Part shown: positions 13,498 through 42,971 of the stretch, piece by piece | Layout of the letters: the number at the start of each line of letters is the position of its first letter | How positions within the stretch are numbered: position 1 is the stretch's first letter | Assembly: GCF_003967355.1 (NCBI RefSeq) | Contig: NZ_BIFH01000017.1 | Span: forward strand, 333,065 to 397,064 | Length of the DNA stretch: 64,000 nucleotides | From: Embleya hyalina | GTDB taxonomy: Bacteria > Actinomycetota > Actinomycetes > Streptomycetales > Streptomycetaceae | Direction of reading: 5' to 3' | Notes under the pieces: generated by a model | Database searches by the model: none | Seen by the model: the letters and a program-made list of their open reading frames with translations, nothing else | Told to the model about the DNA's origin: nothing | Translations under genes and position numbers: made by a program

Positions 13498-13511
13498 TCT
13501 ACGCGCATAGA
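13498..13511. promoter_or_regulatory. Nucleoside-regulon palindrome upstream of pnp
   Basis: TCTACGCGCATAGA, a near-perfect 14-bp palindrome 44 nt before the purine nucleoside phosphorylase start and upstream of its TACGCT -10 box (13543-13548). Very similar sites precede add, deoC and the nucleoside importer operon. Confidence 0.75.
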
Positions 13512-13555
13512 CCCCGGCCGCGCCGTTCACAGGTGCAGCATTTACGCTCATCGAT

Positions 13556-14365
13556 GTGAACGTACTGGATAGCCACGACCCGTATACGGCCGCCGCCGAG
13601 GCCGCCGAAAGCCTGCAGCGGATCACCGGTGCCGCGACGCACGACATCGCGCTCGTCATGGGCTCTGGCTGGGTGCCCGCCGCCGACATGCTCGGTGACC
13701 CGGAACACGAGTTCCCGGTCACCGCGCTGCCCGGCTTCCCGCCGCCCGCCGTCGAGGGCCACGCCGGCACGGTCCGCTCGCTGGTCATCGGCGACCGCCG
13801 CGCGCTGGTGTTCCTCGGCCGCACCCACCTCTACGAGGGCCGGGGCGTCGCCTCGGTCGCCCACGGCGTGCGCACCGCGGTCGCCGCCGGTTGCAAGGCC
13901 GTCGTGCTGACCAACGGCTGCGGCGGCCTGCGCCCGTCGTTCGTGCCCGGTCAGCCCGTACTGATCAGCGACCACATCAACCTCACCGCCGCGTCGCCCA
14001 TCGTCGGCGCCAACTTCGTCGATCTGACCGACCTCTACTCGCCGCGGCTACGCGCGTTGTGTCGCGAGGTCGAGCCCGCCCTCGAAGAGGGCGTGTACGT
14101 ACAGTTCCCCGGCCCGCACTACGAGACCCCGGCCGAGATCGGCATGGTCCGCGCGATCGGCGGGCACCTCGTCGGCATGTCCACCACGATCGAGGCGATC
14201 GCCGCGCGCGAGGCCGGCGCCGAGGTCCTGGGCATCTCCCTGGTCACCAACCTGGCCGCCGGCATGACCGGCGAACCGCTCAACCACGAAGAGGTCCTGG
14301 CCGCCGGACGCGCGTCCGCGGAGCGTATGGGCCGACTGCTCACCCAGGTCCTGCCACGCATCTGA
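13556..14365 (+). CDS. punA: Purine nucleoside phosphorylase
   Basis: A 269-aa class I (trimeric-type) PNP that cleaves (deoxy)inosine and (deoxy)guanosine with phosphate to base plus (deoxy)ribose-1-phosphate. Motifs are the phosphate loop [44 protein letters not shown] and the base-binding end [20 protein letters not shown] followed by VTNLAAG. The GTG start lies 7 nt after the TACGCT -10 box, so the mRNA is probably leaderless. The phosphosugar mutase follows after 70 nt on the same strand, a pairing that suggests joint use of the pentose-1-phosphate product. Confidence 0.93.
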
Positions 14366-14435
14366 GCGGGTGGGTCCGCCGGCCCGTGCGGACCCTTCCC
14401 GATCCCCTCCCGATCCCTTCCGCACCGAGGAGTCC

Positions 14436-16130
14436 GTGTTGAGCGACGTCATCGAGATCGCGCGCGCCTGGCTGGCCGAGGACCCGGACCCGGAGACCCG
14501 GGCCGAGCTCGAAGCGTTGCTCGATTCGGACGACCGGGAGGCTCTCGCCGACCGCTTCGCCGGCCTGCTCCAGTTCGGCACCGCCGGGCTGCGCGGCGAA
14601 TTGGGCGCCGGGCCCAACCGGATGAACCGCGCCGTGGTCATCCGCGCCGCGGCCGGTCTGGCCGGTTACCTCAAGAGCGTGTACGTCACCGACACCGTCG
14701 CGCCCGCCGCGACCCGCAACGCGGTGGTGATCGGGTTCGACGCGCGGCACAAGTCCGACGTGTTCGCCCGGGACACCGCCGCCGTCATGGAGGCCGCCGG
14801 GCTGCACGCGCTGGTGTTGCCCCGACCGCTGCCCACGCCGGTACTCGCCTACGCGATCCGGCATCTGGGCTGCGTCGCCGGCGTGATGGTCACCGCGAGC
14901 CACAACCCGCCGCGCGACAACGGCTACAAGGTCTATCTCGGCGACGGGTCGCAGATCGTGCCGCCCGCCGACGCGGAGATCGCCGCGCACATCGCCGCGG
15001 TGCGCTCCCTGGCCGACGTACCCCTCGCCGAGGACGGGTGGGAGACGCTGAGCGAGGCGGTGATCGACTCCTACCTCGACCGCGCGGTGTCCGTGGTCGA
15101 CCCGGCCGGGCCGCGCGACGTGCGGATCGTGCACACCGCGATGCACGGCGTGGGCACCACCGTGATGCTCGGCGCGTTCGACCGCGCGGGCTTCGCCGAC
15201 GTCCGACCGGTGCCCGAACAGGCGGACCCGGACCCGGACTTCCCGACCGTGGCGTTCCCCAACCCGGAGGAGCCCGGGGCGATGGACCTGGCGTTTCGCA
15301 CCGCGCTGGCCGAGGACGCCGATCTGGTGATCGCCAACGACCCGGACGCCGACCGGTGCGCGGTGGCGGTCCCGGACCCGGCCGCGGCGGGCGGCTGGCG
15401 GATGTTGCGCGGCGACGAGGTCGGCGCGCTGCTCGGCGCCGAGGTGGCCCGCCGGGGTACCGACGGTGTGCTGGCCACGACCATCGTGTCCTCCTCGCTG
15501 CTCGGCGCGATCGCCCGGGACAACGGCATCTTGTACACCGAGACGCTGACCGGCTTCAAGTGGCTGGCGCGGGTGCCGAACCTGGCGTTCGCGTACGAGG
15601 AGGCGCTGGGCTACTGCGTCGACCCGGCCGGGGTGTGCGACAAGGACGGCGTCACCGCCGCGCTGATGCTGGCCGAACTCGCGGCCGGCGCCAAGCGGGA
15701 CGGCCGCACGCTGCCCGCGCTGCTCGACGAGATCGCGACCCGGTACGGCCTGTACGCGACCGACCAGTATTCGGTGCGGGTGGACCGCCTCGACCTGATC
15801 GCCGACGCGATGCGACGCCTGCGTACCGAGCCGCCGCACACGCTCGGCGGCCTCGCCGTGACCGGCGTCGACGACCTGCTCAACCCGCCGGCCGCCGACC
15901 TGCCGCCGACCGACGGCCTGCGCTACACGCTGGCCGGGGACGGCACGGACCTGTTCGCGGGTCGGGTGGTGGTTCGCCCGTCCGGGACCGAGCCCAAGCT
16001 CAAGGCGTATCTCGAGGTCGTGGTCGACCCGAAGCGGATCGCCGCGATCGGCGTGGCCGCCGCCCGCGCGGCGGCGGACGCGGCGACGGCGGCCCTGAAG
16101 CGGGACCTGGCCACGACGCTGGGCATCTGA
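14436..16130 (+). CDS. Phosphosugar mutase (PMM/PGM family), probable phosphopentomutase
   Basis: A 564-aa alpha-D-phosphohexomutase-family protein. The catalytic phosphoserine loop is TASHNPPRDNGYKV near residue 155, the Mg site DPDADRCAVAV near residue 304, the sugar-specificity loop EEALGY near residue 388, and the phosphate-binding RPSGTEPKLKAY near the C-terminus. At this length, and next to PNP, it resembles the PGM2/phosphopentomutase type more than a classical phosphomannomutase. It would convert (deoxy)ribose-1-phosphate to the 5-phosphate used by DeoC. GTG 14436 or TTG 14439 is the start; a GAGGA ribosome site lies just upstream. A strong palindrome follows the stop. Confidence 0.9.
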   Translation: MLSDVIEIARAWLAEDPDPETRAELEALLDSDDREALADRFAGLLQFGTAGLRGELGAGPNRMNRAVVIRAAAGLAGYLKSVYVTDTVAPAATRNAVVIGFDARHKSDVFARDTAAVMEAAGLHALVLPRPLPTPVLAYAIRHLGCVAGVMVTASHNPPRDNGYKVYLGDGSQIVPPADAEIAAHIAAVRSLADVPLAEDGWETLSEAVIDSYLDRAVSVVDPAGPRDVRIVHTAMHGVGTTVMLGAFDRAGFADVRPVPEQADPDPDFPTVAFPNPEEPGAMDLAFRTALAEDADLVIANDPDADRCAVAVPDPAAAGGWRMLRGDEVGALLGAEVARRGTDGVLATTIVSSSLLGAIARDNGILYTETLTGFKWLARVPNLAFAYEEALGYCVDPAGVCDKDGVTAALMLAELAAGAKRDGRTLPALLDEIATRYGLYATDQYSVRVDRLDLIADAMRRLRTEPPHTLGGLAVTGVDDLLNPPAADLPPTDGLRYTLAGDGTDLFAGRVVVRPSGTEPKLKAYLEVVVDPKRIAAIGVAAARAAADAATAALKRDLATTLGI

Positions 16131-16169
16131 GCACGAGCGATCGAAGCACCGGCCGAACGGGCCGGTGGT

Positions 16170-16213
16170 ACGCGTGGGGCGGGGCGGCCGATCGGCCGCC
16201 CCGCCCCACGCGT
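16170..16213. terminator. 44-bp perfect palindrome after the mutase gene
   Basis: Two 22-nt arms (starting ACGCGTGGGGCGGGGCGGCC) with no loop bases between them, 40 nt after the stop codon. It would form an extremely stable hairpin and acts most plausibly as a terminator; there is no T-tract. Confidence 0.8.
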
Positions 16214-16352
16214 GTCCACCTCGATCCGGACCCGCCCGGGGGTCGAGTGGTACTTGCGTACGGGTTCGGTCTGGCCCTCGGGACGGATGTGCCCGAGGGG
16301 TCCGCCGGCGGATGGTGGACAGGTCGGCAGAACCCGATCCCGAGAGGTCGTC

Positions 16353-20339: not shown

Positions 20340-20353
20340 TCTACGCGCGTAGG
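20340..20353. promoter_or_regulatory. Nucleoside-regulon palindrome in the add promoter
   Basis: TCTACGCGCGTAGG, containing the perfect core CTACGCGCGTAG. It ends 3 bp before the TAAAGT -10 box (20357-20362), which is 6 nt before the add ATG. A protein bound here would block the promoter. Confidence 0.82.
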
Positions 20354-20368
20354 CAGTAAAGTCCTTTC

Positions 20369-21502
20369 ATGTCCAGCAGTCACCCGAACACGCCCGCTGT
20401 CTCACCCACGGTCGAACAGATCCGGCGTGCCCCCAAAGTCCTGCTCCACGACCACCTAGACGGTGGGCTGCGTCCCGCCACGATCATCGAACTCGCGGCG
20501 GCCATCGGCTACGACCGCCTGCCCTCCACCGACCCCGACGCGCTCGGCACCTGGTTCCGCGAGGCGGCCGACTCCGGTTCGCTGGAGCGCTACCTGGAGA
20601 CCTTCGACCACACCGTGGCGGTGATGCAGACCCGCGAGGGCCTGTTCCGGGTCGCCGCCGAGTGCGCCGAGGACCTGGCCGCCGACGGCGTGGTCTACGC
20701 CGAGATCCGCTACGCCCCCGAGCAGCACCTGGAGGCGGGCCTGACCCTGGACCAGGTCGTCGAGGCGGTCGACGAGGGTTTCCGCGAGGGCGAGCGCCGC
20801 GCGGCGGCGGCCGGCGACCGGATCAGGGTCGGCGCGCTGCTCACCGCGATGCGGCACGCGGCCCGCTCGCTGGAGATCGCCGAACTCGCCAACCGGCACC
20901 GTGACCTGGGCGTGGTCGGCTTCGACATCGCCGGGGCCGAGGCGGGCTTCCCGCCCACGCGCCACCTGGACGCGTTCGAATACCTCAAGCGCGAGAACAA
21001 CCACTTCACCATCCATGCCGGCGAGGCGTTCGGCCTGCCGTCGATCTGGCAGGCGCTCCAGTGGTGCGGCGCGGACCGGCTCGGCCACGGCGTGCGGATC
21101 ATCGACGACATCACGGTCAAGGACGACGGCGGCGTCGAGTTGGGCCGGCTCGCGGCGTACGTGCGCGACAAGCGCATCCCGCTGGAAATGTGCCCGACCT
21201 CGAACCTGCAGACCGGCGCCGCCTCCTCGTACGCGGAACACCCGATCGGCCTACTCCGCCGGTTGTATTTCCGGGTCACGGTCAACACCGACAACCGCCT
21301 CATGAGCGGCACCTCGACAACCCGGGAGTTCGAGCACCTGGTCGAGGCGTTCGGCTACGGCCTGGACGACCTGCAATGGTTCACGGTCAACGCGATGAAG
21401 AGCGCGTTCCTGCCCTTCGACGAACGCCTCGCCATGATCAACGAGGTGATCAAGCCGGGCTACGCCGCGCTCCGGTCGGAATGGCTGTTCGGCCGGAGCT
21501 GA
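20369..21502 (+). CDS. add: Adenosine deaminase
   Basis: A 377-aa metal-dependent deaminase converting (deoxy)adenosine to (deoxy)inosine. Zinc and catalytic motifs are [10 protein letters not shown] near residue 30, IHAGEAFG near residue 215 (zinc His and catalytic Glu), RLGHGVRI near residue 240, and [11 protein letters not shown] near residue 307 (where the family has S-L-N-T-D-D/N). Its product feeds the PNP encoded about 6 kb upstream. The start follows a leaderless-type promoter carrying the shared nucleoside palindrome. Confidence 0.95.
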
Positions 21503-23748: not shown

Positions 23749-24429
23749 TCATCCGCCCTGGGAAGTAAGGGTCTTCCCGGAGGGGCGGGCGGCCTGCGGC
23801 CAGTCCTTCTCGAACGCCGACGGCGGGCCGCTGGGCCTGGTGCCGGTCGTCGGGGTCGCGGTGGTCTTGCGGCTGATGTCGAGATAGCTCTCGCACCGGT
23901 ACTGCTCGGGCGCGGTGCGGCGGCCCGCGAGCAGCACCGTATTGCCCCCCGACGCGCTCTGCAGCGTGCAGACCACCTGGCCGAGGGCGATGGTGGCCAG
24001 CGCGGCCAGCGGCGCGTCCAGGCGGAACAGGGTCGGCGGATCGCCCTCGCGTCGATCCGCCGCGACCAGGCCGCCGGCCGGCAGCGCGGTGGTGTACCCG
24101 TCCAGCGCCTCGGCGTCGTTCGGACCCAGGTGCAGCTCCTCCAGGAGCTGGTTGAGCTGATCGGTGCGCGGCCGGTCCGGGACCGCCTCGCTCGGTCGCA
24201 GCTGGAGCCGGCCGGCCCTGGGCAGGGCCTGGAGCCGGTTGTCCTTCACCAGATACACGATGTGCCGCTCCGAGCCCGGCAGCTGGCTCTGTACGGACGG
24301 CGCGGTCCGGTTGGCCGGCTTGCCGGCGCCGACCGGCCCCTCGGTCGGTCGGATCCCGCAGGAGGTGAGCGCGGCGAGCACGCCGGTGGTCGCGAGGATC
24401 GCGATCGGAAGCCGCCGCCTGGGTCTCAA
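23749..24429 (-). CDS. AfsQ3-like lipoprotein (GerMN-type)
   Basis: A 226-aa lipoprotein: a basic start, a hydrophobic core and the lipobox LTSC with the acylated Cys near residue 23. The remaining domain (IVYLVKDNRLQALPRAGR, LLEELHLGPNDAEALDGYTT, TIALGQVVCTL) resembles GerMN-type lipoproteins. The start TTG overlaps the afsQ2 stop as TTGA, so translation is coupled. In S. coelicolor a lipoprotein gene follows afsQ1-afsQ2 in the same place, probably modulating sensor activity at the membrane surface. Confidence 0.85.
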   Translation of the reverse strand: MRPRRRLPIAILATTGVLAALTSCGIRPTEGPVGAGKPANRTAPSVQSQLPGSERHIVYLVKDNRLQALPRAGRLQLRPSEAVPDRPRTDQLNQLLEELHLGPNDAEALDGYTTALPAGGLVAADRREGDPPTLFRLDAPLAALATIALGQVVCTLQSASGGNTVLLAGRRTAPEQYRCESYLDISRKTTATPTTGTRPSGPPSAFEKDWPQAARPSGKTLTSQGG

Positions 24430-26099: not shown

Positions 26100-26782
26100 T
26101 GGGGCGGATCGAGGCGGTAACCGACGCCTCGGACAGTGCGGATGAGCGTCGGCGCGGACGGGGTCTGCTCCACCTTGGCGCGCAGCCGCTGCACGCACGC
26201 GTCGACCAGGCGCGAGTCACCGAGGTAGTCGTGCTCCCACACCAGGCGAAGCAGCTGCTGGCGCGACAGTGCCTGGCCCGGGCGCCGACTCAGCTCGACC
26301 AGCAGGCGCAGCTCGGTCGGGGTGAGCTGAAGCTCCTCGCCGGCCTTGGTCACCGTCATCGCGTTGCGATCGACCACCAGGTCGCCGAACACCGACGCGT
26401 CGGACACCTCGCGTTCGCCGCGGCGCAGCACCGCGCGGATCCGGGCGTCCAGCACCCGCGGCTGCACCGGCTTGACGACGTAGTCGTCGGCACCGGACTC
26501 CAGGCCGACCACCACGTCGATGTCGTCGTTGCGCGCGGTCAACAGGATGATCGGCAGCGAGTCGGTGCGGCGGATCCGCCGGCACACCTCGAACCCGTCG
26601 ATGCCCGGGAGCATCACGTCGAGCACGATCAGGTCGGGACGCTGCTCGCGCCACCGCTCCAGACCGGCCTCACCGGTGGCCGCGGTGACCACGCGATGGC
26701 CCTGGCGCCCCAGGGCGAGTTCGAGTCCGGTGCGTACGGACTCGTCATCCTCGATAAGCAGCAGGTAGGGCACGCAGGCCAT
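26096..26782 (-). CDS. afsQ1: Response regulator AfsQ1 (OmpR/PhoB type)
   Basis: A 225-228-aa regulator. The receiver domain has the acidic pair IEDDES, phospho-Asp in IVLDVMLPGIDGFEVCRR near residue 54, Thr in LLTARNDD and Lys in YVVKPVQ. The C-terminal winged helix carries LTPTELRLLVELSRRPGQAL and RLRAKVEQ. GTG 26773 would give 225 aa, the length I recall for S. coelicolor AfsQ1; ATG 26782 is also possible. It is divergent from a sigma factor, exactly the sigQ-afsQ1 arrangement, and a candidate AfsQ1 box lies between them. Confidence 0.94.
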   Translation of the reverse strand: MACVPYLLLIEDDESVRTGLELALGRQGHRVVTAATGEAGLERWREQRPDLIVLDVMLPGIDGFEVCRRIRRTDSLPIILLTARNDDIDVVVGLESGADDYVVKPVQPRVLDARIRAVLRRGEREVSDASVFGDLVVDRNAMTVTKAGEELQLTPTELRLLVELSRRPGQALSRQQLLRLVWEHDYLGDSRLVDACVQRLRAKVEQTPSAPTLIRTVRGVGYRLDPPQ

Positions 26783-26859
26783 TGTGTCTGACGTCACGGC
26801 TGGGAAGAACACGGGGAGCCCCCTTCCGGTTCGCCGCCCGAGGTCGCTGTTGCATACCT

Positions 26860-26875
26860 GTGACAGCTCGCCGAC
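26860..26875. promoter_or_regulatory. Candidate AfsQ1 binding site
   Basis: On the minus strand the sequence reads GTCGG-N6-GTCAC, preceded by another GTCAG. It matches the published AfsQ1 consensus GTnAC-N6-GTnAC apart from two bases in one half. It sits in the sigQ-afsQ1 intergenic region, which AfsQ1 is known to bind in S. coelicolor. Confidence 0.6.
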
Positions 26876-26939
26876 CTGACGATGAAGCCCGCCCAGCAGG
26901 CTGTACATCGTGAACGAGCGCCGAGCCGGGGGAGAAGTC

Positions 26940-31415: not shown

Positions 31416-32294
31416 TCAGTGTCCGGTCGGGTGCCAGACCGTGCGGGTCTCGGTGAACGCCAGCATGCGCGCGGTGCCCGGGTCCGCCGTCCAGTCCGGC
31501 TCCTTGGGCCCGGGGCGCAACACGCGCTTGAGGTTGTCCGCCGCCGCGATCTCCAGGTCGCGCGCCGACGCCACGCCCGCGTCCGGCGCGACGCCGGTCA
31601 GGTCGATCGCGTTGACGTCCTGGTGCGACGCGAGCGTCGGGGCGATCTCCGCCGGGTGCCCGGTGAGGATGTTGACCACCCCGCCCGGCAGGTCGGAGAC
31701 GGCCAGGACCTCGGCGAAGGACAGCGCGGGCAGCGCCGAGGCGCCGGCCGCGAGCACGACGGCGGTGTTGCCGGTGGCGATCACCGGTGCGACCGCGCCC
31801 GTCAGGCCCAGCAGCGAGGAGCGCTGGGAGGCGATCACCGCGACCACGCCGGTGGGCTCGGGCGTCGACCAGTTGGCGAACGGCCCGGCGACCGGGTTGG
31901 CGCCGCCGGCGACCTGGGCGAGCTTGTCGGTCCACCCGGCGTACCAGACCCAGCGGTCCACGGCCGCGTCCACGGCCGCGAGCGCCCTCGTGCGGTTGAC
32001 CCCCTCGGCGGCGGCGACCTCGGTCGCGAACTGCTCGCGCCGACCCTCCAGCATCTCGGCGATCCGGTAGAGGATCTGGCCCCGGTTGTACGCGGTGGCG
32101 CCCGACCAGCCCGGGAACGCCTTGCGCGCGGCGACCACCGCGTCGCGGGCGTCCTTGCGGCTGCCGCGCGGGGCGTTGGCCAGGGTCCGGCCCTTGCTGT
32201 CGGTCACCGCGTACACCCGCCCGCTCTCGGACCGGGGGAACTTGCCCCCGACGTACAGCTTGTAGGTCTTGAGTACCTCAAGGCGCTCAGACAT
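31416..32294 (-). CDS. Truncated ALDH-like protein lacking catalytic residues
   Basis: A 292-aa protein homologous to the N-terminal, cofactor-binding half of aldehyde dehydrogenases: KLYVGGKFPRSESGR at the start, ARKAFPGWSGATAYNRGQIL, then the coenzyme-fold region GVVAVIASQRSSLLGL and TGNTAVVLAAGASALP. The E-L-G-G-K segment is replaced by ADNLKRVLRPGP and there is no G-Q-x-C active-site cysteine. It therefore cannot catalyse as a normal ALDH. The ATG overlaps the stop of the full-length ALDH by 8 nt (ATGTCTGA), so it is translated with it and is probably a structural or regulatory partner. Confidence 0.85.
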   Translation of the reverse strand: MSERLEVLKTYKLYVGGKFPRSESGRVYAVTDSKGRTLANAPRGSRKDARDAVVAARKAFPGWSGATAYNRGQILYRIAEMLEGRREQFATEVAAAEGVNRTRALAAVDAAVDRWVWYAGWTDKLAQVAGGANPVAGPFANWSTPEPTGVVAVIASQRSSLLGLTGAVAPVIATGNTAVVLAAGASALPALSFAEVLAVSDLPGGVVNILTGHPAEIAPTLASHQDVNAIDLTGVAPDAGVASARDLEIAAADNLKRVLRPGPKEPDWTADPGTARMLAFTETRTVWHPTGH

Positions 32295-33750
32295 CGAGGT
32301 AGGCCTCCAGCCCGTGGCGGCCACCCTCGCGGCCGAAGCCCGACTCCTTGAACCCGCCGAACGGCGAGGCCGGGTCGAACTTGTTGAACGTGTTGGTCCA
32401 CACGACGCCCGCCCGCAGCCGCTGCGCGGTCCACAGGGCCTTGGCGCCCTTCTCCGTCCACACCCCGGCGGACAGGCCGTACGCGGTGTTGTTGGCCTTC
32501 TCCACGGCCTCGGCGGGAGTGCGGAAGGTCTGTACGGTCAGCACCGGGCCGAAGATCTCGTCCCGGGCGATCCGGTGCGCCTGGGTGACGCCGGTGAACA
32601 CCGTCGGCGGGAACCAGAAGCCCTTGCCCGGCAGCTCGCCGGCCAGGGACCAGCGCTCGGCGCCCTCGGCCTCGCCCGCCGCGACCAACTCCTGGATCCG
32701 GGAGAGCTGCGCGGCCGAGTTGATCGCGCCGACGTCGGTGTTCTTGTCCAGCGGGTCGCCCACGCGCAGCGTCTTGATCCGCCGGGTCAGGCTCGCGAGC
32801 AGTTCGTCGGCCACCGACTCCTGCACGAGCAGTCGGGAGCCGGCGCAGCAGACCTGGCCGCCGTTGAAGAAGATGCCCTCGACGATGCCGTCGACGGCGG
32901 AGTCGATCGCCGCGTCGTCGTAGACGATGTTCGCGGCCTTGCCGCCCAGTTCGAGGGTGACCCGCTTGCGGGTGCCCGCGATGGTGCGGGCGATCTCCTT
33001 GCCCACGGCGGTCGAGCCGGTGAACGCGACCTTGTCCACGTCGGGGTGGGCGATCAGCGCGCGCCCGGTCTCCCCGGCGCCGGTGACGATGTTCACCACA
33101 CCGTTCGGCAGCCCGGCCTCGACGCAGATCTCGGCGAAGCGCAGCGCGGTCAGCGGGGTGGTCTCGGCCGGCTTGAGCACCACGGTGTTGCCGCACGCGA
33201 GGGCCGGCGCCACCTTCCAGGCCAGCATCAGCAGCGGGAAGTTCCACGGGATGACCTGACCGGCCACGCCGATCGGCTTCGGGTCCGCGCCACTGTGCTC
33301 GTTGGTGCGGCTCCGCCACAACCCCGCGTGGGCCAGCTTGTCGGCCCAGCCCGCGTAGTGGAAGAAGTGCGCCGCGACCAGCGGGATGTCCACGTCGCGC
33401 GACTCGCGGATCGGCTTGCCGTTGTCGATCGACTCCAGCACGGCCAGCTCGCGCGCGTGCTCCTGGATCAGCCGGGCGATCCGGAACAGGTACTTGGCGC
33501 GCTGCGCGCCGGGCAGCGCCGACCAGGACTTGAACGCCTTGCGCGCGGCCTTGACCGCGCGGTCCACGTCCGCCTCGCCGCCGACCGCGATCTCGGCCAG
33601 CACCTCCTCGGTGGCCGGGTTCACCGTCTTCAGCCGGCCGCCGTCCGCCGCCTCGGCGAAGGTGCCGTCGATGAACAGCCCGTACGCCGGGGCGATGTCG
33701 ACGATCGCGCGCGACTCGGGCGCGGGCGCGTACTCGAATGGGTTGCCCAT
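32287..33750 (-). CDS. Aldehyde dehydrogenase, linked to deoC
   Basis: A 487-aa NAD(P)-dependent ALDH. Motifs are [20 protein letters not shown] (coenzyme), [12 protein letters not shown], catalytic Glu in [12 protein letters not shown] near residue 262, catalytic Cys in [10 protein letters not shown] near residue 295, and EIFGPVLTV. It follows deoC by 5 nt, so the likely physiological substrate is acetaldehyde released by deoxyribose-phosphate aldolase, giving acetate. A second, shortened ALDH-like protein is translated from an overlapping start downstream. Confidence 0.92.
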
Positions 33751-33755
33751 GGCTG

Positions 33756-34736
33756 TCAGTCCACCGTCACGTAGTCGGGGCCGGAGTAGCGGCCCGTGGC
33801 CAGCTTCTGGCGCTGCATCAGGAGGTCGTTGAGCAGGCTGGAGGCGCCGAGCCGGAACCAGTCGGGGTCCAGCCAGTCGGAGCCGACCGTCTCGTTGACC
33901 AGGACGAGATACTTCATCGCGTCCTTGGTGGTGCGGATCCCGCCGGCGGGCTTGACGCCGACCTGGCGGCCGGTCGCCTCGCGGAAGTCGCGGACCGCCT
34001 GGAGCATCACCAGCGTCACCGGCAGAGTCGCGTTGACCGCGACCTTGCCCGTGGACGTCTTGATGAAATCGGCCCCCGCGAGCATCGCCAGCCACGACGC
34101 ACGACGAACGTTGTCGTACGTCGACAGTTCACCGGTCTCCAGAATCACCTTGAGGTGGGCACTGCCGCCGCCCGCGGCCTCGCCGCGCGCGCAGGCGGCC
34201 TTGACCGCGACGATCTCGTCGAAGACGTCGCGGTAGCGGCCGGCCAGGAACGCGCCCCGGTCGATGACCATGTCGATCTCGTCCGCGCCGGCGGCGACCG
34301 CGTAGGCCACGTCGGCGAGCTTGACGTCGAGCGAGGCGCGCCCGGACGGGAACGCGGTGGCGACCGCGGCGACGTGTACGCCGAAGTCGCCGAGCGCCGC
34401 CTTGGCCTCGGCGACCAGGTCGCCGTAGACGCAGATCGCGGCGGGTCGGGGGGTGTCGGGGGCGCCCGGGTCCGGATGCAGCGCCTTGGCGCACAGGGAC
34501 CGGACCTTGCCCGGGGTGTCGGCACCTTCCAATGTGGTCAGGTCGATCATCCGGATGGCGAGGTCGATCGCGGCGACCTTCGCGTCCGTCTTGATCGAGC
34601 GCGTGGCGAGCATCGCTGCCCGCGCTTCGGTTCCGACCCTGTCGACGCCGGGAAGCCCGTGCAGGAAGCGTCGAAGGGCCGCTTCGGACGAGGTGACCTC
34701 GGCCGGGTCGGCGAGAATTGCAGACGGCATACTCAC
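33756..34736 (-). CDS. deoC: Deoxyribose-phosphate aldolase
   Basis: A 326-aa class I aldolase that splits 2-deoxyribose-5-phosphate into glyceraldehyde-3-phosphate and acetaldehyde. Catalytic elements are DEIDMVIDRGAFLAG (Asp proton relay), the Schiff-base lysine in ADFIKTSTGK near residue 212, and the second lysine in VGVKPAGGIR. GTG 34736 is preferred because TATGCT ends 6 nt before it; an ATG two codons later is the alternative. The operator of the shared nucleoside palindrome directly abuts this -10 box. It leads the deoC-aldh-aldh operon. Confidence 0.94.
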   Translation of the reverse strand: MSMPSAILADPAEVTSSEAALRRFLHGLPGVDRVGTEARAAMLATRSIKTDAKVAAIDLAIRMIDLTTLEGADTPGKVRSLCAKALHPDPGAPDTPRPAAICVYGDLVAEAKAALGDFGVHVAAVATAFPSGRASLDVKLADVAYAVAAGADEIDMVIDRGAFLAGRYRDVFDEIVAVKAACARGEAAGGGSAHLKVILETGELSTYDNVRRASWLAMLAGADFIKTSTGKVAVNATLPVTLVMLQAVRDFREATGRQVGVKPAGGIRTTKDAMKYLVLVNETVGSDWLDPDWFRLGASSLLNDLLMQRQKLATGRYSGPDYVTVD

Positions 34737-34748
34737 AAGACGAGCATA

Positions 34749-34762
34749 TCTACTCGCGTAGC
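34749..34762. promoter_or_regulatory. Nucleoside-regulon palindrome in the deoC promoter
   Basis: TCTACTCGCGTAGC on the plus strand, one mismatch from the palindrome at add. On the coding strand it ends immediately at the TATGCT -10 element (34748-34743), so binding would occlude RNA polymerase. Confidence 0.8.
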
Positions 34763-35629: not shown

Positions 35630-36916
35630 TCAGGCCGTCGGGCCGATCCGGTCGATCAGGATCGGGGTCGGCTCGAACGCCGTGCCCCTCGGGGCGATCG
35701 TGACCGCGTCGGACAGGATCTCGGTCGCGTAGTCGAAGCGCTCCGGAGTGTCGGTGTGCAGGGTCAGCAGGGGCTGACCGGCGACCACCGTGTCGCCCGG
35801 CTTGGCGTGCAGTTCGACGCCCGCGCCCGCCTGGACCCGCTCCTCCTTGCGGGCCCGGCCCGCGCCCAGGCGCCAGGCCGAGACGCCGACCGCGTAGGCG
35901 TCGAGCCGGGTCAGCACGCCGGAGGAGGACGCGGTGACCACCCGCGTCTCGCGCGCCACCGGCAGCTTGGCGTCCGGATCGCCGCCCTGGGCCCGGATCA
36001 TCCGCCGCCACACGTCCATCGCCGAGCCGTCGCGCAGCGCGTCGGCCGGGTCGATCCGGGTCTGCCCGGCCGCCGCCAGCATCTCCCGGGCCAGCGCCAC
36101 GGTCAGCTCGACCACGTCCGCCGGACCGCCGCCGGCCAGCACCTCGACCGACTCGCGGACTTCGAGGGCGTTGCCCGCGGTCAGGCCGAGCGGGGTGGAC
36201 ATGTCGGTCAGCAGCGCGACCGTCCCGACCCCGTGGTCCACGCCCAGCCGGACCATGGTGCGGGCCAGTTCGCGCGCGCTGTCCAGGTCCTTCATGAACG
36301 CGCCCGAGCCGACCTTGACGTCGAGCACCAGCGCGCCGGTGCCCTCGGCGATCTTCTTGCTCATGATCGAGCTGGCGATCAGCGGGATCGCCTCGACCGT
36401 GCCGGTCACGTCGCGCAGCGCGTACAGCTTCTTGTCCGCCGGCGCCAGTCCGTCGCCCGCCGCGCAGATCACCGCGCCGACGTCCTCCAGCACCCGCAAC
36501 ATCGCGTCGTTGGACAGCGCCGCCCGCCACCCGGGGACGGCCTCCAGCTTGTCCAGCGTGCCGCCGGTGTGGCCGAGGCCACGACCGGACAGCTGCGGCA
36601 CGGCCACACCGCACGCGGCGACCAGCGGGGCCAGCGGCAGGGTGATCTTGTCGCCCACCCCGCCGGTGGAGTGCTTGTCGGCCGTCGGCCGGGACAGCGT
36701 CGAGAAGTCCATCCGCTCGCCCGAGGCGATCATCGCGTCGGTCCAGCGGTTGATCTCGGTCGCGTTCATCCCGTTGAGCAGGATCGCCATCGCGAGCGCC
36801 GACATCTGCTCGTCCGCGACCTCGCCGCGGGTGTACGCATCGACCACCCAGTCGATCTGAGCCGCCGTCAGTTCACCGCGGTCCCGCTTCGTACGGATGA
36901 CCGAAATCGCGTCCAT
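35630..36916 (-). CDS. deoA: Thymidine phosphorylase
   Basis: A 428-aa pyrimidine nucleoside phosphorylase releasing thymine/uracil and (deoxy)ribose-1-phosphate. Motifs are ISVIRTKRDRGELT at the N-terminus, the phosphate site DKHSTGGVGDKITLPLAP, GRGLGHTGGTLDKLE (family signature) and SSIMSKKIAEGTGALVLDVK. ATG 36916 fits the family N-terminus; ATG 36925 lies too near the AGAGGG ribosome site. It is last in the importer-cdd-deoA operon and is followed by the convergent terminator. Confidence 0.94.
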   Translation of the reverse strand: MDAISVIRTKRDRGELTAAQIDWVVDAYTRGEVADEQMSALAMAILLNGMNATEINRWTDAMIASGERMDFSTLSRPTADKHSTGGVGDKITLPLAPLVAACGVAVPQLSGRGLGHTGGTLDKLEAVPGWRAALSNDAMLRVLEDVGAVICAAGDGLAPADKKLYALRDVTGTVEAIPLIASSIMSKKIAEGTGALVLDVKVGSGAFMKDLDSARELARTMVRLGVDHGVGTVALLTDMSTPLGLTAGNALEVRESVEVLAGGGPADVVELTVALAREMLAAAGQTRIDPADALRDGSAMDVWRRMIRAQGGDPDAKLPVARETRVVTASSSGVLTRLDAYAVGVSAWRLGAGRARKEERVQAGAGVELHAKPGDTVVAGQPLLTLHTDTPERFDYATEILSDAVTIAPRGTAFEPTPILIDRIGPTA

Positions 36917-36973
36917 GCCGTCCATTCCCTCTCGGCCGCCCAGGCGGCCCGTTCGACTCACGAACACACGGCG

Positions 36974-37363
36974 CTACGCGAGGTCCTCGGGCCCGAAGGC
37001 ATCCGGCAGGATCTCCCGCAGCGGCCGTATCCCGTGCTTGGTTTCCAGCAACATCCCGGGGCCGCCGTGCTCCCACAGCAGCTGCCGGCAGCGCCCACAG
37101 GGCATCAGTACCGCGCCCTCGCCGTCCACGCAGCAGAACGCCACGAGCCGGCCGCCCCCGCTCGCGTGCAGCGCGGACACCAGGCCGCACTCCGCGCACA
37201 ACGTCAGGCCGTACGACGCGTTCTCCACGTTGCACCCGGACACGATCCGGCCGTCGTCCACCAGCGCCGAGGCGCCGACCGGATACTTCGAGTACGGCGC
37301 GTAGGCACCGCGCATCGCCGCCGTCGCCGCGTCCCGCAGCGCCGGCCAATCGATCTCCGACAC
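36974..37363 (-). CDS. cdd: Cytidine deaminase
   Basis: A 129-aa zinc deaminase for (deoxy)cytidine. Motifs are AYAPYSKYPVGASALVDDG, GCNVENASYGLTLCAECGLV (zinc Cys with catalytic Glu, C-A-E) and PCGRCRQLLWE (two zinc Cys). GTG 37363 starts 6 nt after the permease stop, within the operon, so imported cytidine is deaminated to uridine for DeoA. Confidence 0.94.
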   Translation of the reverse strand: MSEIDWPALRDAATAAMRGAYAPYSKYPVGASALVDDGRIVSGCNVENASYGLTLCAECGLVSALHASGGGRLVAFCCVDGEGAVLMPCGRCRQLLWEHGGPGMLLETKHGIRPLREILPDAFGPEDLA

Positions 37364-37368: not shown

Positions 37369-38718
37369 TCAGCCCTTCGTGTAGGGCTTGTTCGCCGCCG
37401 CCGGAGCGCGCACCTTGCCGACCAGGCCGGCCACCGCGAAGATCGTCACCACGTACGGCATCATCTGCAGGAACTGGCTCGGGATCGACGTGTTCAGCGG
37501 CTGCAACGAGGTCGCGAGCGCGCTGGTGAAGCCGAACAGCAGCGCCGCGGCCACCGCGCCCAGCGGACGCCAGCGGCCGAAGATGACCGCCGCGAGCGCG
37601 ATGTAGCCCGCGCCGGAGGTCATGTCCTTCGAGAAGGTGCCCACCGTGCCGATGGTCAGGAACGCGCCGCCGACACCGGCGATCGCGCCCGCCATGATCA
37701 CGTTGCGGTAGCGGGTCGCGTTGACCTTGATGCCGACCGTGTCCGCCGCCGTCGGGTGCTCGCCCACCGCGCGGGCGCGCAGCCCCCAGCGGGTGTGGAA
37801 CAGGCCCAGGTGCACGATCACGATCAGCGCGTACATCAGGTACACGATCACGTTCACGTCGAACAGGACCGGGCCGATCACCGGGATGTCGGCGAAGCCC
37901 GGGATCCGGATGTTGTCGAACACGCCCGGGTTGTTGTACTGCTCGGGGTCCTTTTGCAGCAGCTGTGTGTAGAGGAAGCCGGTGATGCCGGTGACCAGCA
38001 GGTTGATCACCACACCGAGGACGACCTGCTCGACCAGGTAGCGCACCGCGAAGACCGCGAGCAGTGCGCCGATCAGCGCGCCCGCGACCGCGCCGGCGGC
38101 CAGCCCGGCCCACAACGACCCGGTCACCGAGCCGGTCAGCGCGGCGGCGAACGCGCCGAACAGGAACTGACCGTCGATGGCGATGTTGACCACGCCGGAG
38201 CGCTCGCCGATCACGCCCGCGAGCGCGCCGAGCACCAGGGGCACCGCGGCCAGCAGGGTGTTCTGCAGCGCGCCCGCGAAGGACATCTGCTTGCCCGCGA
38301 CCGCCCACACCAGGAACGCGATCACGAACGCGATCAGGAACAGCGCGATGCTCAGCCGGGTGGCCAGGCGCGAGCGGTCGAAGGCGATCCGCAGCCCGCC
38401 CGCGATCATGCACACCACGGACATCGCGATCGCCACCCCGCGCGCGGGCAGCGACAGGTCGCCCACGTGGGTGGTGTCGCGGTTGGGCACGGTCATCCCG
38501 AAGACCGCGTCCTCACCGCCCGAGGTGCCGAAGCCGAACGCCCACAGCGCGTACAGCCCGACCAGGATGAAACCGATGCCCGTGATCAGGGCCTTCTTTC
38601 GGGCCGCGGCCCGCACCGCGTCGGCGGCCTCGCCGGTGGGGTTCACCGGAGCCTCCACGTGGGGGGCGATCACGGTGTCCGCCACCTGCGTGCCTCCTTC
38701 GGGATTCCGCTCGGTCAT
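37369..38718 (-). CDS. Nucleoside ABC importer permease, second subunit
   Basis: A 449-aa branched-chain/BMP-type permease with a cytoplasmic N-terminal extension of about 45 residues and about ten spans. The core GVIGERSGVVNIAIDGQFLFGA is the conserved permease motif of the RbsC/YufQ class, and VGIKVNATRYRNVIMAGAIAG is the ATPase-contact region. The ATG overlaps the stop of permease 1 (ATGA). It corresponds to NupQ/YufQ of Bacillus nucleoside importers. Confidence 0.92.
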   Translation of the reverse strand: MTERNPEGGTQVADTVIAPHVEAPVNPTGEAADAVRAAARKKALITGIGFILVGLYALWAFGFGTSGGEDAVFGMTVPNRDTTHVGDLSLPARGVAIAMSVVCMIAGGLRIAFDRSRLATRLSIALFLIAFVIAFLVWAVAGKQMSFAGALQNTLLAAVPLVLGALAGVIGERSGVVNIAIDGQFLFGAFAAALTGSVTGSLWAGLAAGAVAGALIGALLAVFAVRYLVEQVVLGVVINLLVTGITGFLYTQLLQKDPEQYNNPGVFDNIRIPGFADIPVIGPVLFDVNVIVYLMYALIVIVHLGLFHTRWGLRARAVGEHPTAADTVGIKVNATRYRNVIMAGAIAGVGGAFLTIGTVGTFSKDMTSGAGYIALAAVIFGRWRPLGAVAAALLFGFTSALATSLQPLNTSIPSQFLQMMPYVVTIFAVAGLVGKVRAPAAANKPYTKG

Positions 38719-40037
38719 GCCTGGACCCCCACGGTCTCCTTGGCGGCCAGCGGCCCGCCCTCGGCGCCCTCGCGGGCACCGCGCAGCCGGAAGATCGAGC
38801 GCACCAGCGGCGGCGCCGCGACGAACAGCACGATCACGGCCTGGATGACGATGACGATGTCGACGGACACGTTGGCGGACGCCTGCATGACCGAACCGCC
38901 CGCGCGCAGCGCGCCGAACAGCAGCGCGGCCAGCACCGTGCCCAGCGGCTTGGTGCGACCGAGCAGGGCCACGGTGATCGCGTCGAAGCCGATGCCGGCG
39001 TCGATGCTCGGGGTCAGCGTGTGTGCCGGGTTGGTCGAGCTCATCACCTGCGAGACACCGGCGAGACCGGCCATCGCACCGGCGATCACCATCGCCAGGA
39101 TCTGCGCCCGGGCCACGCTCATCCCCGCCGTACGGGCCGCGTCCGGGTTGGAGCCCACCGCGCGCAGCTCGAAGCCGAGTGTGGAGCGGTTGAGCAGCCA
39201 CCAGTAGATCCCGGCCGCCAGCAGGGCCAGGATGATGCCGAAGTGGATCCGCAGGTTGTCGCCGAACAGGTTCGGCAACACCGCGTTGTCGTTCGCGTCC
39301 TTGCCGATCGGCTGCGATTGCCCGCCGCGCCGGAAGGTGTCGGTGGTCAGCAGCCAGCCGAGCAGCAGCACCGCGATGTGGTTGAGCATGATCGTGACGA
39401 TCACCTCGTGCGCGCCGTAGCGGGCCTTGAGGAAACCGGCGATGCCCGCGTACAGACCGCCGCCGATGACGCCGGCGAGGATCACGAACACCAGGTGGAT
39501 CACCGGCGGCAGGTCGACGACGAACCCTATCCACGACGCGAACACCGCGCCGGCGATGATCTGCCCCTGCGCACCGATGTTGAACAGCCCGGTGCGGAAC
39601 GCGATCGAGACCGCGAGACCGCCGAAGATCAGCGGTGTGGCCTGGGTGATCGTCTCGGAGATCGGCCGGAAGTTGTCCTCGAGCGAGCCGTCGGCGAACA
39701 GGTCCGGGTTCATGATCGAACCCTTGAACATCGCGCTGTAGGCGTCGGAGACCAGGCTCCACGAGGCGGAGAGCGCATCGCCCGGAGCGGCGGTGAAGTA
39801 CTTGTACTGGTCGAGCACGTCCTGGTCCGCGAGGATCATCAGGACGCCGCCGACCACCAGGGCGAGCAGGATGGCCAGGAAGGTCACCACGGCCGAGTTG
39901 CCGGTGATGATCCCGTCGAGCATCGCTCGGCCCAGGGACGGCTTGGGCGGCGCGCTCGCGCTCGCCCCGGCCGGCCGGGTCGCCGCCGGCTTCGCCTCGC
40001 TCGGCTCGCCGGGCGTGCTCTTGTTGTCCTCGGTCAC
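38715..40037 (-). CDS. Nucleoside ABC importer permease, first subunit
   Basis: A 440-aa permease with a polar, Pro/Ala-rich N-terminus of about 45 residues and about ten spans. It has the conserved FRTGLFNIGAQGQIIAGAVF loop and the VGSNPDAARTAGMSVARAQ coupling segment. The GTG start overlaps the ATPase stop (GTGA). It corresponds to NupP/YufP. The extracellular loop between the first spans is enlarged, as in this class. Confidence 0.92.
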   Translation of the reverse strand: MTEDNKSTPGEPSEAKPAATRPAGASASAPPKPSLGRAMLDGIITGNSAVVTFLAILLALVVGGVLMILADQDVLDQYKYFTAAPGDALSASWSLVSDAYSAMFKGSIMNPDLFADGSLEDNFRPISETITQATPLIFGGLAVSIAFRTGLFNIGAQGQIIAGAVFASWIGFVVDLPPVIHLVFVILAGVIGGGLYAGIAGFLKARYGAHEVIVTIMLNHIAVLLLGWLLTTDTFRRGGQSQPIGKDANDNAVLPNLFGDNLRIHFGIILALLAAGIYWWLLNRSTLGFELRAVGSNPDAARTAGMSVARAQILAMVIAGAMAGLAGVSQVMSSTNPAHTLTPSIDAGIGFDAITVALLGRTKPLGTVLAALLFGALRAGGSVMQASANVSVDIVIVIQAVIVLFVAAPPLVRSIFRLRGAREGAEGGPLAAKETVGVQA

Positions 40038-41647
40038 GCTGGGTCCTCCTCCCCCGGGGTTGCGTCGCTCTCGTTCGTCTTCGCCTCGACCGGCCCGGCC
40101 GGGGCCGTGTCCGCACGGGTCGCCCCGGCGCCGTCGGCGTGCTCCGCGCCGGGCAGCACGCCGGCCATCAGCAGACCCAGGTCGCCGCGCGAGGTGGTCG
40201 GCGGGACGATGTCCACGATCCGGCCCCGGTACATCACCGCGATCCGGTCGGCCAGCGCGACCACCTCGTCCAACTCGGTGGACACGATGATCACCGGGGT
40301 GCCCACGTCGCGCTCGGCCACGATCCGCTTGTGGATGAACTCCATCGCCCCCACGTCCACCCCTCGGGTGGGCTGCGAGGCGATGAACAGCCGCAGCGGG
40401 CGCGAGAGTTCGCGCGCGACCACGACCTTTTGCTGGTTGCCGCCCGACAAGGTGCCGGCCGGCGACTCGATGGTCTGGGTGCGGATGTCGAACTCCTCGA
40501 CCCGCTCGCGCGCGTTGTCGCGCACCGCGCTCGGCACGATCGACCCGCGCTTGCCGAACGGCGCCTGGGTGACCATGTCCAGGACCAGGTTCTCGGCCAC
40601 CGTGAAGTCGCTCACGATGCCGTCGTGCTGCCGGTCCTCGGGGACGAAGCCGACCCCGGAGCCGAGGATCTGCCGCGGGCTCATGCCCGCCAGGTCCTTG
40701 CCGTCCAGGCTGATCGACCCGGCCGCAGGGGCGCGCAGCCCCAGGATCGCCTGGGTCAACTCGCTCTGGCCGTTGCCGTCCACGCCCGCGATGCCCAGGA
40801 TCTCGCCCTCGCGCAGCCGCAGGTCGACCCGGTCCACCACGGCCTGCCCGTTGCCGTCGAGCACGGTCAGGTCGTTGATCTCCAGGCGCACCGCGCCCGG
40901 CTCGGCCTCGGTCTTGTCGACCACCAGCTTGACCGGCCGGCCGACCATCAGCGACGCGAGTTCCTTCTCCGAGGAGGCCGGGTCGGCGGTGCCGACGACC
41001 TTGCCGCGACGGATCACGGTGATCCGGTCGGCGACGGCCTTGACCTCCTTGAGCTTGTGCGTGATGAACACGATGGAGTGGCCGGACTCGCGCAGCGCGC
41101 GCATCACCCGGAACAACTCCTCGGTCTCCTGGGGGGTGAGCACCGCGGTGGGCTCGTCCAGGATCAGCACCTTGGCGTCGCGCACCAGGGCCTTGAGGAT
41201 CTCCACCCGCTGTTGCAGACCGACGGGAAGATCCTCGACCAGCATGTCCGGGTCGACCTTGAGGCCGTACTCGTCGACGAGGTCGAGCACCTTCTTGCGG
41301 GCCCGACGGCGGTCCAGCCAGCCCATCGGCTTGGTTTCCTCGTGGCCGAGCATGACGTTCTCGGCGACGGTGAAGACCGGGACCAGCATGAAGTGTTGGT
41401 GGACCATGCCGATGCCCGCGTCGATCGCGTCACCGGCGGTGCGGAACTTGCGGGGGGTCCCGTCGACGACGATCTCGCCCTCGGTGGGCTCGTAGAGCCC
41501 GTAGAGCACGTTCATCAGGGTCGACTTGCCGGCACCGTTCTCACCGAGAAGGCAGTGGATCTCCCCCGGCTCGACGGTCAGGTCGATGTGGTCGTTGGCG
41601 ACCAGCGACCCGAACCGTTTCGTGATTCCGCGCAGTTCGAGCTTCAA
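40034..41647 (-). CDS. Nucleoside ABC importer ATPase (two NBDs)
   Basis: A 537-aa sugar/nucleoside-type ATPase with two nucleotide-binding domains. The first has Walker A LLGENGAGKST, a DLPVGLQQRVEILKAL signature region and Walker B VLILDEPTAVL. The second has the degenerate Walker A GVDGNGQSELTQ, the signature TLSGGNQQKVVVARELS and a Walker B region reading RLFIASQPTRGVD. This asymmetry is normal for RbsA/NupO-type proteins. The TTG start is preceded by a GGAGG ribosome site. A strong hairpin separates it from the binding-protein gene. Confidence 0.93.
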   Translation of the reverse strand: MKLELRGITKRFGSLVANDHIDLTVEPGEIHCLLGENGAGKSTLMNVLYGLYEPTEGEIVVDGTPRKFRTAGDAIDAGIGMVHQHFMLVPVFTVAENVMLGHEETKPMGWLDRRRARKKVLDLVDEYGLKVDPDMLVEDLPVGLQQRVEILKALVRDAKVLILDEPTAVLTPQETEELFRVMRALRESGHSIVFITHKLKEVKAVADRITVIRRGKVVGTADPASSEKELASLMVGRPVKLVVDKTEAEPGAVRLEINDLTVLDGNGQAVVDRVDLRLREGEILGIAGVDGNGQSELTQAILGLRAPAAGSISLDGKDLAGMSPRQILGSGVGFVPEDRQHDGIVSDFTVAENLVLDMVTQAPFGKRGSIVPSAVRDNARERVEEFDIRTQTIESPAGTLSGGNQQKVVVARELSRPLRLFIASQPTRGVDVGAMEFIHKRIVAERDVGTPVIIVSTELDEVVALADRIAVMYRGRIVDIVPPTTSRGDLGLLMAGVLPGAEHADGAGATRADTAPAGPVEAKTNESDATPGEEDPA

Positions 41648-41732
41648 CGCGGAGACCTCCTCGGCTACGCCCCCCGCGAGGGGCCGCTACGGGTTCGACC
41701 CGGGTCCCCTCGGGGCCCGGGCGGTACGGACA

Positions 41733-41764
41733 CGGGCGCCGCGGAAATGCTTCCGCGGCGCCCG
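41733..41764 (-). terminator. Stem-loop between binding-protein gene and importer genes
   Basis: A perfect 14-bp stem (CGGGCGCCGCGGAA with its complement) and an ATGC tetraloop, right after the binding-protein stop. As the downstream genes share the promoter, it probably acts as a partial terminator or 3' stabiliser keeping the binding protein in excess. Confidence 0.75.
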
Positions 41765-41773
41765 ATCGCTGAG

Positions 41774-42883
41774 TCAGCTCTTCGGCTGGTTCTTCGAGGT
41801 GATCTTGATCTTGCCGCTGACGATGTCGCCCTTGACCGCGGTCAGCTCGGACTTCAGGTCGGCGGGGACCTTCGATTCGAAGTCGTGGAACGGGGCGAGG
41901 CCGACGCCGTCGTTGGCGAGGGTGCCGATGGTGGCCTTGGTGGTGAACTGGTTGTTCGCCGCGGCCTTGACCGCGTTGAACACCTGGTCCTTGATGTCCT
42001 TGGTCACCGTGGACAGGAACACCGACTTGTACTGCGAGGCGCTCTCGTAGCCGTCCTGGTCGACCCAGATGACGCTCGCCTTGCCACCGCTCTTCTGCAC
42101 GGCGGAGGCCGCGCCGAGACCGGTCTGGCCGGCGACCGGCATGATCACGTCGGCGCCCTGGGCGATGAAGTCGTTGGCGATGCGCTCACCGTCGGCCGGC
42201 GAGTCGAACTTGCCCGCGAGCGAGCCGTCGCCCTTGACGTCGTCCCAACCGATGACCTGGACGTTCTTGCCCTTGGTCTGGTTGTAGTACTTGACGCCCT
42301 GGACGTAGCCGTCCATGAACACGGTGACCGGCGGGATCGGCAGCGCGCCGAAGGTGGCGACCTTGCCGGACTTCGAGTAGCCCGCGGCGAGGTAGCCGCC
42401 GAGGAAGCCGGCCTCGGCCGTGTTGAACTCCAGACCCTGGACGTTCGGCTCGATGCTCGCCGAGTCGACGATCGCGAACTTCTGGTCCTTGTGCGTGGAC
42501 GCGGCGGCCTTCGTCGCGTCGGCCATCAGGCCGCCGACCGCGACGATCAGCCCGCACTTGTCGTTCACGAGACTGTTGAGGTTCGGCACGTAGTCGTTCT
42601 CGGTCTTCGAGGTGATGTACTTCACGTCGACGCCGAGCTGCTGCTTGGCCTGCTGAAGACCCGCCCACGACGAGGCGTTGAACGAACGGTCGTCGATGCC
42701 GCCGGTGTCCGTCACCATGCATGCCTTGAAGTCGATCTTCGTCGCCTGCGTACCACCGGGGGTGGCGCTGGTGCCCGAGTCCGACTTCTTGTCGTCCTTG
42801 GGCTTGCTACCGCACGCGGCGGTGGCGGTGAGGGCGAGAGTGACGCCGACCGCAGCCGCGGTCACCTTGGATACCCGGCGCAC
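41774..42883 (-). CDS. BMP-family nucleoside-binding lipoprotein
   Basis: A 369-aa solute-binding lipoprotein: signal MRRVSKVTAAAVGVTLALTA, then a lipobox ending at ATAAC (acylated Cys near residue 24) and a Lys/Asp/Ser/Gly linker. The BMP (Med/PnrA-like) domain follows: MVTDTGGIDDRSFNASSWAG, VGGLMADATKAAA, NTAEAGFLGGYLAAGY, FMDGYVQGVKYYN. PnrA-type proteins bind purine and pyrimidine nucleosides. GTG 42883 has a GGAAGGAG ribosome site. It is the first gene of the operon; the shared palindrome lies in the leader. Confidence 0.93.
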   Translation of the reverse strand: MRRVSKVTAAAVGVTLALTATAACGSKPKDDKKSDSGTSATPGGTQATKIDFKACMVTDTGGIDDRSFNASSWAGLQQAKQQLGVDVKYITSKTENDYVPNLNSLVNDKCGLIVAVGGLMADATKAAASTHKDQKFAIVDSASIEPNVQGLEFNTAEAGFLGGYLAAGYSKSGKVATFGALPIPPVTVFMDGYVQGVKYYNQTKGKNVQVIGWDDVKGDGSLAGKFDSPADGERIANDFIAQGADVIMPVAGQTGLGAASAVQKSGGKASVIWVDQDGYESASQYKSVFLSTVTKDIKDQVFNAVKAAANNQFTTKATIGTLANDGVGLAPFHDFESKVPADLKSELTAVKGDIVSGKIKITSKNQPKS

Positions 42884-42901
42884 GGGTGTCTCCTTCCGAT
42901 G

Positions 42902-42919
42902 AGCGCCCCTTCGGGCGCT
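42902..42919 (-). promoter_or_regulatory. Leader hairpin ahead of the binding-protein ribosome site
   Basis: AGCGCCC pairs with GGGCGCT across a 4-nt loop, about 10 nt upstream of the GGAAGGAG ribosome site. It may influence translation or mRNA stability. Confidence 0.45.
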
Positions 42920-42957
42920 GCTCCCAGATGCAGACTCTGACGCGCTTGGATCCCTGG

Positions 42958-42971
42958 TAAACGCGCGTAGA
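42958..42971. promoter_or_regulatory. Nucleoside-regulon palindrome in the importer operon leader
   Basis: On the coding strand TCTACGCGCGTTTA: the left ten bases match the add site exactly and the right end is weaker. It lies about 17 bp downstream of a TATGCT -10 box (42994-42989), so binding would act as a roadblock. Confidence 0.7.

Follow-up and report, generated by a model that had tools for sequence, protein, structure and literature searches.

Does one transcription factor govern nucleoside salvage in Streptomycetaceae, and if so, is its gene at hand? The question is raised by a stretch of 64,000 nucleotides of Embleya hyalina (contig NZ_BIFH01000017.1, our contig C17 of a 12.05-Mb genome, positions 333,065 to 397,064; hereafter the window), where versions of the 14-bp palindrome TCTACG-CG-CGTAGA precede four groups of genes. 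The initial annotation had reported near-identical sites there and read them as a local nucleoside regulon under one dedicated factor whose gene is not evident in the window. From sequence comparisons we consider it likely, with a probability of roughly 0.78, that the palindrome is the operator of one Streptomycetaceae transcription factor, probably a dimeric repressor, that controls these four units. All four sites were found where they had been reported:

13498 to 13511, plus strand: operator-like palindrome upstream of pnp, TCTACGCGCATAGA, one mismatch to the consensus
20340 to 20353, plus strand: operator-like palindrome upstream of add, TCTACGCGCGTAGG, one mismatch
34749 to 34762, minus strand: operator-like palindrome upstream of deoC, forward-strand TCTACTCGCGTAGC, minus-strand GCTACGCGAGTAGA, two mismatches
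42958 to 42971, minus strand: operator-like palindrome before the nucleoside importer operon, forward-strand TAAACGCGCGTAGA, minus-strand TCTACGCGCGTTTA, two mismatches

These are exactly the places that the window holds at up to two mismatches; at up to three the count is unremarkable (six places against a shuffle mean of 3.45, with 13 of 100 shuffles reaching six). A matrix derived from sites in other genera, with one weight per target class, ranks the four first to fourth in the window (22.95, 21.77, 19.85 and 16.11); this matrix is independent of the Embleya genome but not of the pattern, because its training sites all lie within two mismatches of the consensus. The next match (13.03) is internal to the coding sequence of pnp. 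Simulation of 30 sequences of 64 kb each gave on average 0.07 matches that reached the fourth score, and the best match per sequence averaged 11.6, with one at 21.9. No clear conservation around the site was found beyond the 14 bp in this matrix analysis.

Each site fronts a nucleoside salvage unit, in agreement with the initial annotation. The genes, identified with Pfam and NCBIfam models, are given here together with a DeoR-family gene that is our best candidate for the factor:

13556 to 14365, plus strand: pnp, purine nucleoside phosphorylase, GTG start, TIGR01698 above cut-off, Pfam PNP_UDP_1
14370 to 16130, plus strand: phosphohexomutase-family gene downstream of pnp, Pfam PGM_PMM, with a possible phosphopentomutase role
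20369 to 21502, plus strand: add, adenosine deaminase, NF006847 above cut-off
33756 to 34730, minus strand: deoC, deoxyribose-phosphate aldolase, TIGR00126 above cut-off, the ATG at 34730 taken by eye as start
31416 to 34095, minus strand: two aldehyde dehydrogenase-family genes downstream of deoC, Pfam Aldedh
37369 to 42883, minus strand: importer genes for a Bmp/PnrA-type binding protein, an ATPase and two permeases, Pfam Bmp, ABC_tran and, twice, BPD_transp_2
35630 to 37345, minus strand: cytidine deaminase-type gene (start approximate) and pyrimidine nucleoside phosphorylase gene at the end of the importer operon, Pfam dCMP_cyt_deam_1 and PYNP_C, NF004490 above cut-off
10040 to 10894, minus strand: DeoR-family regulator, Pfam HTH_DeoR and DeoRC

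Where the sites lie relative to the promoters was judged from -10-like boxes, all assigned by eye. The claim that the site touches or nearly touches the -10 box at deoC and add agrees with these assignments: at deoC it abuts a putative TATGCT (34748-34743, minus strand) and at add it lies 3 bp from a putative TAAAGT (20357-20362). This placement at deoC and add speaks for an operator. The pnp site is 31 bp upstream of a TACGCT (13543-13548), and the site before bmp, the gene for the importer's binding protein, is 17 bp downstream of a TATGCT (42994-42989). The pnp and add messages are probably leaderless. In six pnp promoters of other genera (L026, L036, L038, L040, L066 and L067) site and -10-like box are some 11 bp apart as judged by eye; the Embleya gap (13512-13542) is some 20 bp longer, an excess close to two helical turns.

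Further evidence comes from the family. At up to one mismatch, the site occurs in 37 of 37 sampled Streptomycetaceae genomes (212 sites, as against 4 for the reversed pattern) and in one of 24 genomes outside the family, which carries two sites. The exact 12-mer core, CTACGCGCGTAG, is present in all 28 family genomes searched for it, with 106 sites as compared with 15 for the reversed pattern; of 268 genomes elsewhere in the class, 10 contain it; as a yardstick the reversed pattern is imperfect, being commoner than the forward one in several other families. The cleanest comparison rests on 80 named loci that were retrieved through the DeoR-family gene and not through the site; one is labelled Saccharothrix, and all other genera named are presumably Streptomycetaceae. 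Only loci with a match to the gene of at least 50% identity and with 300 bases of upstream sequence were counted. Among these, pnp is preceded by the site in 75 of 75 (at up to one mismatch) and deoC in 44 of 44 (at up to two mismatches, 37 of them at up to one). At neighbouring genes it is nearly absent, with one occurrence in 410: pgm 0/66, ggct 0/76, deoR 0/80, lpd 1/76, accBC 0/57 and maf 0/55, after 5 pgm, 4 lpd, 4 accBC and 1 maf loci had been dropped for an unplaced start or short upstream sequence. The first aldehyde dehydrogenase gene (aldh1, 0/9) lost 32 loci in this way and was left out of the control count. The site is thus kept upstream of orthologous genes, the point on which the initial annotation had said that its regulon could fail.

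When distinct upstream sequences were pooled, the site was found at up to two mismatches before pnp in 99 of 100, before deoC in 55 of 55 and before add in 19 of 20; the values for nupO (12/15), bmp (5/9) and deoA (6/13), like that for add, are biased upwards because many of these loci were fetched through sites in or near them. The lower values for bmp and deoA indicate that the position of the site within the importer operon varies. One relative (G004, L366:694-729) has two tandem sites before this operon, with one and two mismatches and 22 bp apart. An unprompted count of 10-mers upstream of pnp returned words of the palindrome as the most shared (96%). The 24 pnp loci examined in 23 genomes from outside the family all lack the site at up to two mismatches, the nearest being one at three.

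How far do the four sites stand out within Embleya itself? The perfect consensus is absent from the genome. At up to two mismatches there are 20 places, all with one or two, against 11 for the reversed control; at up to one mismatch there are 3 against 0, two of the three being in the window. Four of the 20 fall within 29.5 kb (P ~2e-7, a post hoc value since the interval had been picked by the initial annotation), so that promoters of several functionally linked units share the palindrome above chance. With 20 forward against 11 reversed at two mismatches, most of the places beyond these four may be chance matches. The sole further one-mismatch site in the genome (C16:584434; L295:4435-4448) precedes a gene for a major facilitator superfamily transporter.

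We also looked at the cluster in G037, a genome that belongs to the order but to a different family. There the neighbourhood is kept: accA2, maf, accBC, lpd, ggct, pnp, pgm, deoC, add, deoA, cdd and the two aldehyde dehydrogenases at about 60-85% identity, and importer genes at 29-46%. No site was found at up to two mismatches in the 80 kb examined, and no orthologue of the DeoR-family gene (best match 31%, elsewhere). Genome-wide this organism has four places at up to two mismatches, the same number as the reversed control; one has the exact core and is outside the cluster. In the pieces of two further genomes (G058 and G067) that were examined, pnp and its neighbours are kept and neither the DeoR-family gene nor the site is present.

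What would the palindrome do? Our proposal is that a single factor, most likely a dimeric repressor, binds it and in Embleya controls pnp with the phosphomutase gene, add, deoC with the aldehyde dehydrogenase genes, and the importer-cdd-deoA operon. It would bind in the -10 and spacer region at add and deoC, upstream of the core promoter at pnp and just downstream of the start at the importer operon. RNA polymerase would thereby be blocked until the factor is released by a signal derived from nucleosides or purines. Two points weigh against this proposal. The pnp site is centred at about -51 from the putative start, a position that is also compatible with an activator, and the two-mismatch count in the genome is not far above its control.

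The word 'local' in the initial annotation is not borne out for the family, in which the palindrome precedes nucleotide genes elsewhere in relatives' genomes; what stands is the shared operator-like site of the nucleoside salvage units, conserved across Streptomycetaceae. The site was found upstream of an NCS2-type permease gene (Xan_ur_permease) in 17 of 17 distinct upstream sequences (genes of at least 68% identity), of a carbon-nitrogen hydrolase gene of the beta-ureidopropionase kind in 14 of 14, and of purS in 12 of 12, fractions that are silent on how often these genes lack the site because the loci were retrieved by it. A permease gene of about 60% identity (L175), fetched by another route and below the identity cut, lies some 3 kb from the one site at up to one mismatch in its locus. 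At eight purS loci lsr2 is on the opposite side; in L248, L053, L265 and L285 the palindrome lies between divergent lsr2 and purS-purQ, so that lsr2 expression is possibly touched too. Genes more rarely preceded by the palindrome are of the dihydropyrimidinase type (two loci), the purN type (one) and a second adenosine deaminase (two; in both, L246:5000 and L249:5000, it overlaps the first codons), as well as a lamin-tail nuclease and a protein of unknown family (three clustered loci each). That the same small set of nucleotide genes turns up in one genus after another suggests that these are additional targets; the other extra places, such as one at a phage-type protein in L082 and those inside genes, look like chance. 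Among the Embleya places at up to two mismatches, purS, the permease and the hydrolase were not recognised, a negative reached without first placing these three genes in the genome.

Which protein reads the site? The statement that no gene for the factor is evident in the window is doubtful, as the DeoR-family gene at 10040-10894, with its almost invariant DNA-binding domain, is a candidate. The gene starts 2.6 kb before the pnp site and encodes a protein with both the HTH_DeoR and the DeoRC domain, so that a DeoR-family protein is encoded alongside the putative targets, as expected of a DeoR-type regulon. An orthologue was found in 392 of 394 family genomes (E 1e-70), and none of the genomes searched outside the family has a homologue above 45% identity. 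In 98 distinct sequences, most of them from a search seeded partly with the first eight residues of the protein, 58 of 61 columns of the helix-turn-helix are invariant against 97 of 189 in the sensor part; without the sequences from the seeded search the figures are 58 of 61 and 110 of 189 (32 sequences). Among solved structures a single one, that of a deoxyribose operon repressor (7l6l, E 7e-5), matches the protein at E 0.001. The gene and the operator occur together in 37 of 37 family genomes, and both are missing from the clusters of the three genomes G037, G058 and G067 described above; a draft genome, G495, has sites and no detected gene. In one further genome (G377) the orthologue lies in two reading frames (L349:6202-6973), by sequencing error or decay, and nine sites are kept; in another (G625) the contig as examined ends before the pnp side is reached. 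We take SCO4920 to be the orthologue in Streptomyces coelicolor. SCO4920, a gene of the deoR type, has been placed at the centre of a network that was inferred; the first paper on it does not speak of nucleosides.

Several findings weigh against this candidate. Its best NCBIfam matches are the AgaR and GlpR models, below cut-off, and the DeoR model gives only 64 bits where the cut-off is 244. The palindrome is missing from the gene's own promoter in all 80 loci, even at up to three mismatches, and autoregulation through it was accordingly rejected; that promoter has a conserved sequence of its own. The joint absence of gene and sites outside the family amounts to one or a few evolutionary events, and a genome with six sites (G495) has no DeoR-family gene detectable at E 1e-70, although this is a draft, 96% complete with 7% contamination, in which the gene order is changed after pnp. 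Nor does the comparison with G037 single out the DeoR-family gene, because the response regulator, the kinase and the sigma factor of the cluster are also without a close match in its cluster. A genome of another family (G136) with three exact 12-mers and no DeoR-family homologue at E 1e-10 was tried as a decisive case and set aside, the target genes of the window not being beside its sites. Taking these points together, we put the chance that the DeoR-family protein reads the palindrome at somewhat below even.

The strongly conserved region upstream of position 10894 and of the orthologous starts (L115-L194) has a sequence that does not resemble the palindrome, in many genera of the CTGAAAGCAGACGGTC type.

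The alternative that survives best keeps the operator and moves the factor: a regulator encoded elsewhere, of the TetR, MarR, LacI or GntR type for example, would read the site and the DeoR-family gene would be a bystander. We regard this as about as likely as the DeoR candidate, close to an even chance. The bare DeoR promoter (0/80) with its own conserved element and the sites in G495 suit it, and the wider targets (purS, nucleobase permease, pyrimidine catabolism) would fit a purine or base sensor better than a sensor of deoxyribose phosphate. On the other hand no candidate gene turned up, although whole genomes were not scanned for one. Of 12 permease loci of six kb, 7 (L046, L054, L264, L270, L272, L284 and L289) carry a MarR-family gene about 350 bp downstream of the permease, but this gene has a different conserved promoter element, of the TTAG...CTAA type, and was rejected as the autoregulated factor on this ground. 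Another MarR gene lies beside that for beta-ureidopropionase in 6 of 16 loci with the hydrolase gene, some of them short, and was likewise rejected. XdhR, a TetR-type purine regulator of S. coelicolor, has xdhABC and act genes as reported targets (PMC6627660).

By position, two other regulatory genes of the window come into question:

24426 to 27199, minus strand: two-component sensor kinase and OmpR-type response regulator, assigned by Pfam

The family loci examined have this pair between add and deoC. In the outgroup cluster it has no close match, apart from a 42% response regulator some 35 kb off; in 14 sequences 67 of 77 columns of the regulator's DNA-binding domain are conserved. OmpR-type regulators, however, usually bind direct repeats and not perfect palindromes, and we think it very improbable that this one reads the site.

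That the palindrome is a chance or structural feature (a restriction site, a hairpin or a coding constraint) is hardly credible: the window count at three mismatches and the genome count at two would allow it, but not the promoter-specific conservation across the family with near-empty controls, the clustering, and the absence from the syntenic cluster of G037. An explanation at the RNA level was rejected, as no Rfam family reaches its gathering score in the window.

A broader form of the proposal is conceivable, although we would put it at less than even odds: a single palindrome and a Streptomycetaceae-specific master regulator, possibly the DeoR-family protein of the window, would link the import and breakdown of nucleosides with the uptake of nucleobases, purine synthesis (purS-purQ, next to lsr2), the breakdown of pyrimidine bases and secreted nucleases. 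If true, filamentous actinomycetes would have in it a switch for 'nucleic-acid recycling'. In the course of development Streptomyces reuse DNA and RNA of their own, and they produce many signals that derive from nucleosides or depend on GTP. With a strong 14-bp operator and a short list of target promoters the factor should be directly findable, and a ready reporter is at hand. Operators of this kind are known, and this instance is apparently undescribed: in the open-access literature as far as its text could be searched, including for the core CTACGCGCGTAG, CTACGCG and TACGCGCGTA, we found neither a description of the operator nor a factor that coordinates nucleoside salvage in Streptomyces, and papers matching the core concern, by title, DNA structures and GapR.

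How does the proposed regulon compare with known ones? DeoR of E. coli and other enterobacteria is a DeoR-family repressor of the deo genes. The Embleya system resembles that regulon in its targets, which include deoxyribose-phosphate aldolase, nucleoside phosphorylases and uptake, and in the DeoR-family gene adjoining the cluster. It differs in the operator sequence, in the extension of relatives' sites to purine synthesis and base uptake, and in a putative regulator that resembles the AgaR and GlpR models more closely than the DeoR model. In bacterial PurR regulons, purS and a nucleobase permease, which the palindrome precedes in relatives, are classical targets; unlike there, nucleoside breakdown is the core here. 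XdhR likewise regulates purine metabolism and comes from the same bacterial family, but it is TetR-type, with xdhABC and act genes as its reported targets; the consulted part of a review of Streptomyces purine metabolism gives it for xdhABC and describes no general nucleoside regulator (PMC6627660). No xdh genes were recognised among the sites found, xdh promoters not having been searched. The CytR regulon of gamma-proteobacteria places several nucleoside uptake and breakdown units, deoC and cdd included, under one repressor (PMC3454398). CytR belongs to the LacI type and has weak sites, most of which lie between two CRP sites, whereas the site here is a strong 14-bp palindrome, and no LacI gene was seen among the window proteins scanned, which were part of its open reading frames. 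In its layout the Embleya system is nonetheless like that of CytR: several units for nucleoside uptake and breakdown would answer to one predicted repressor.

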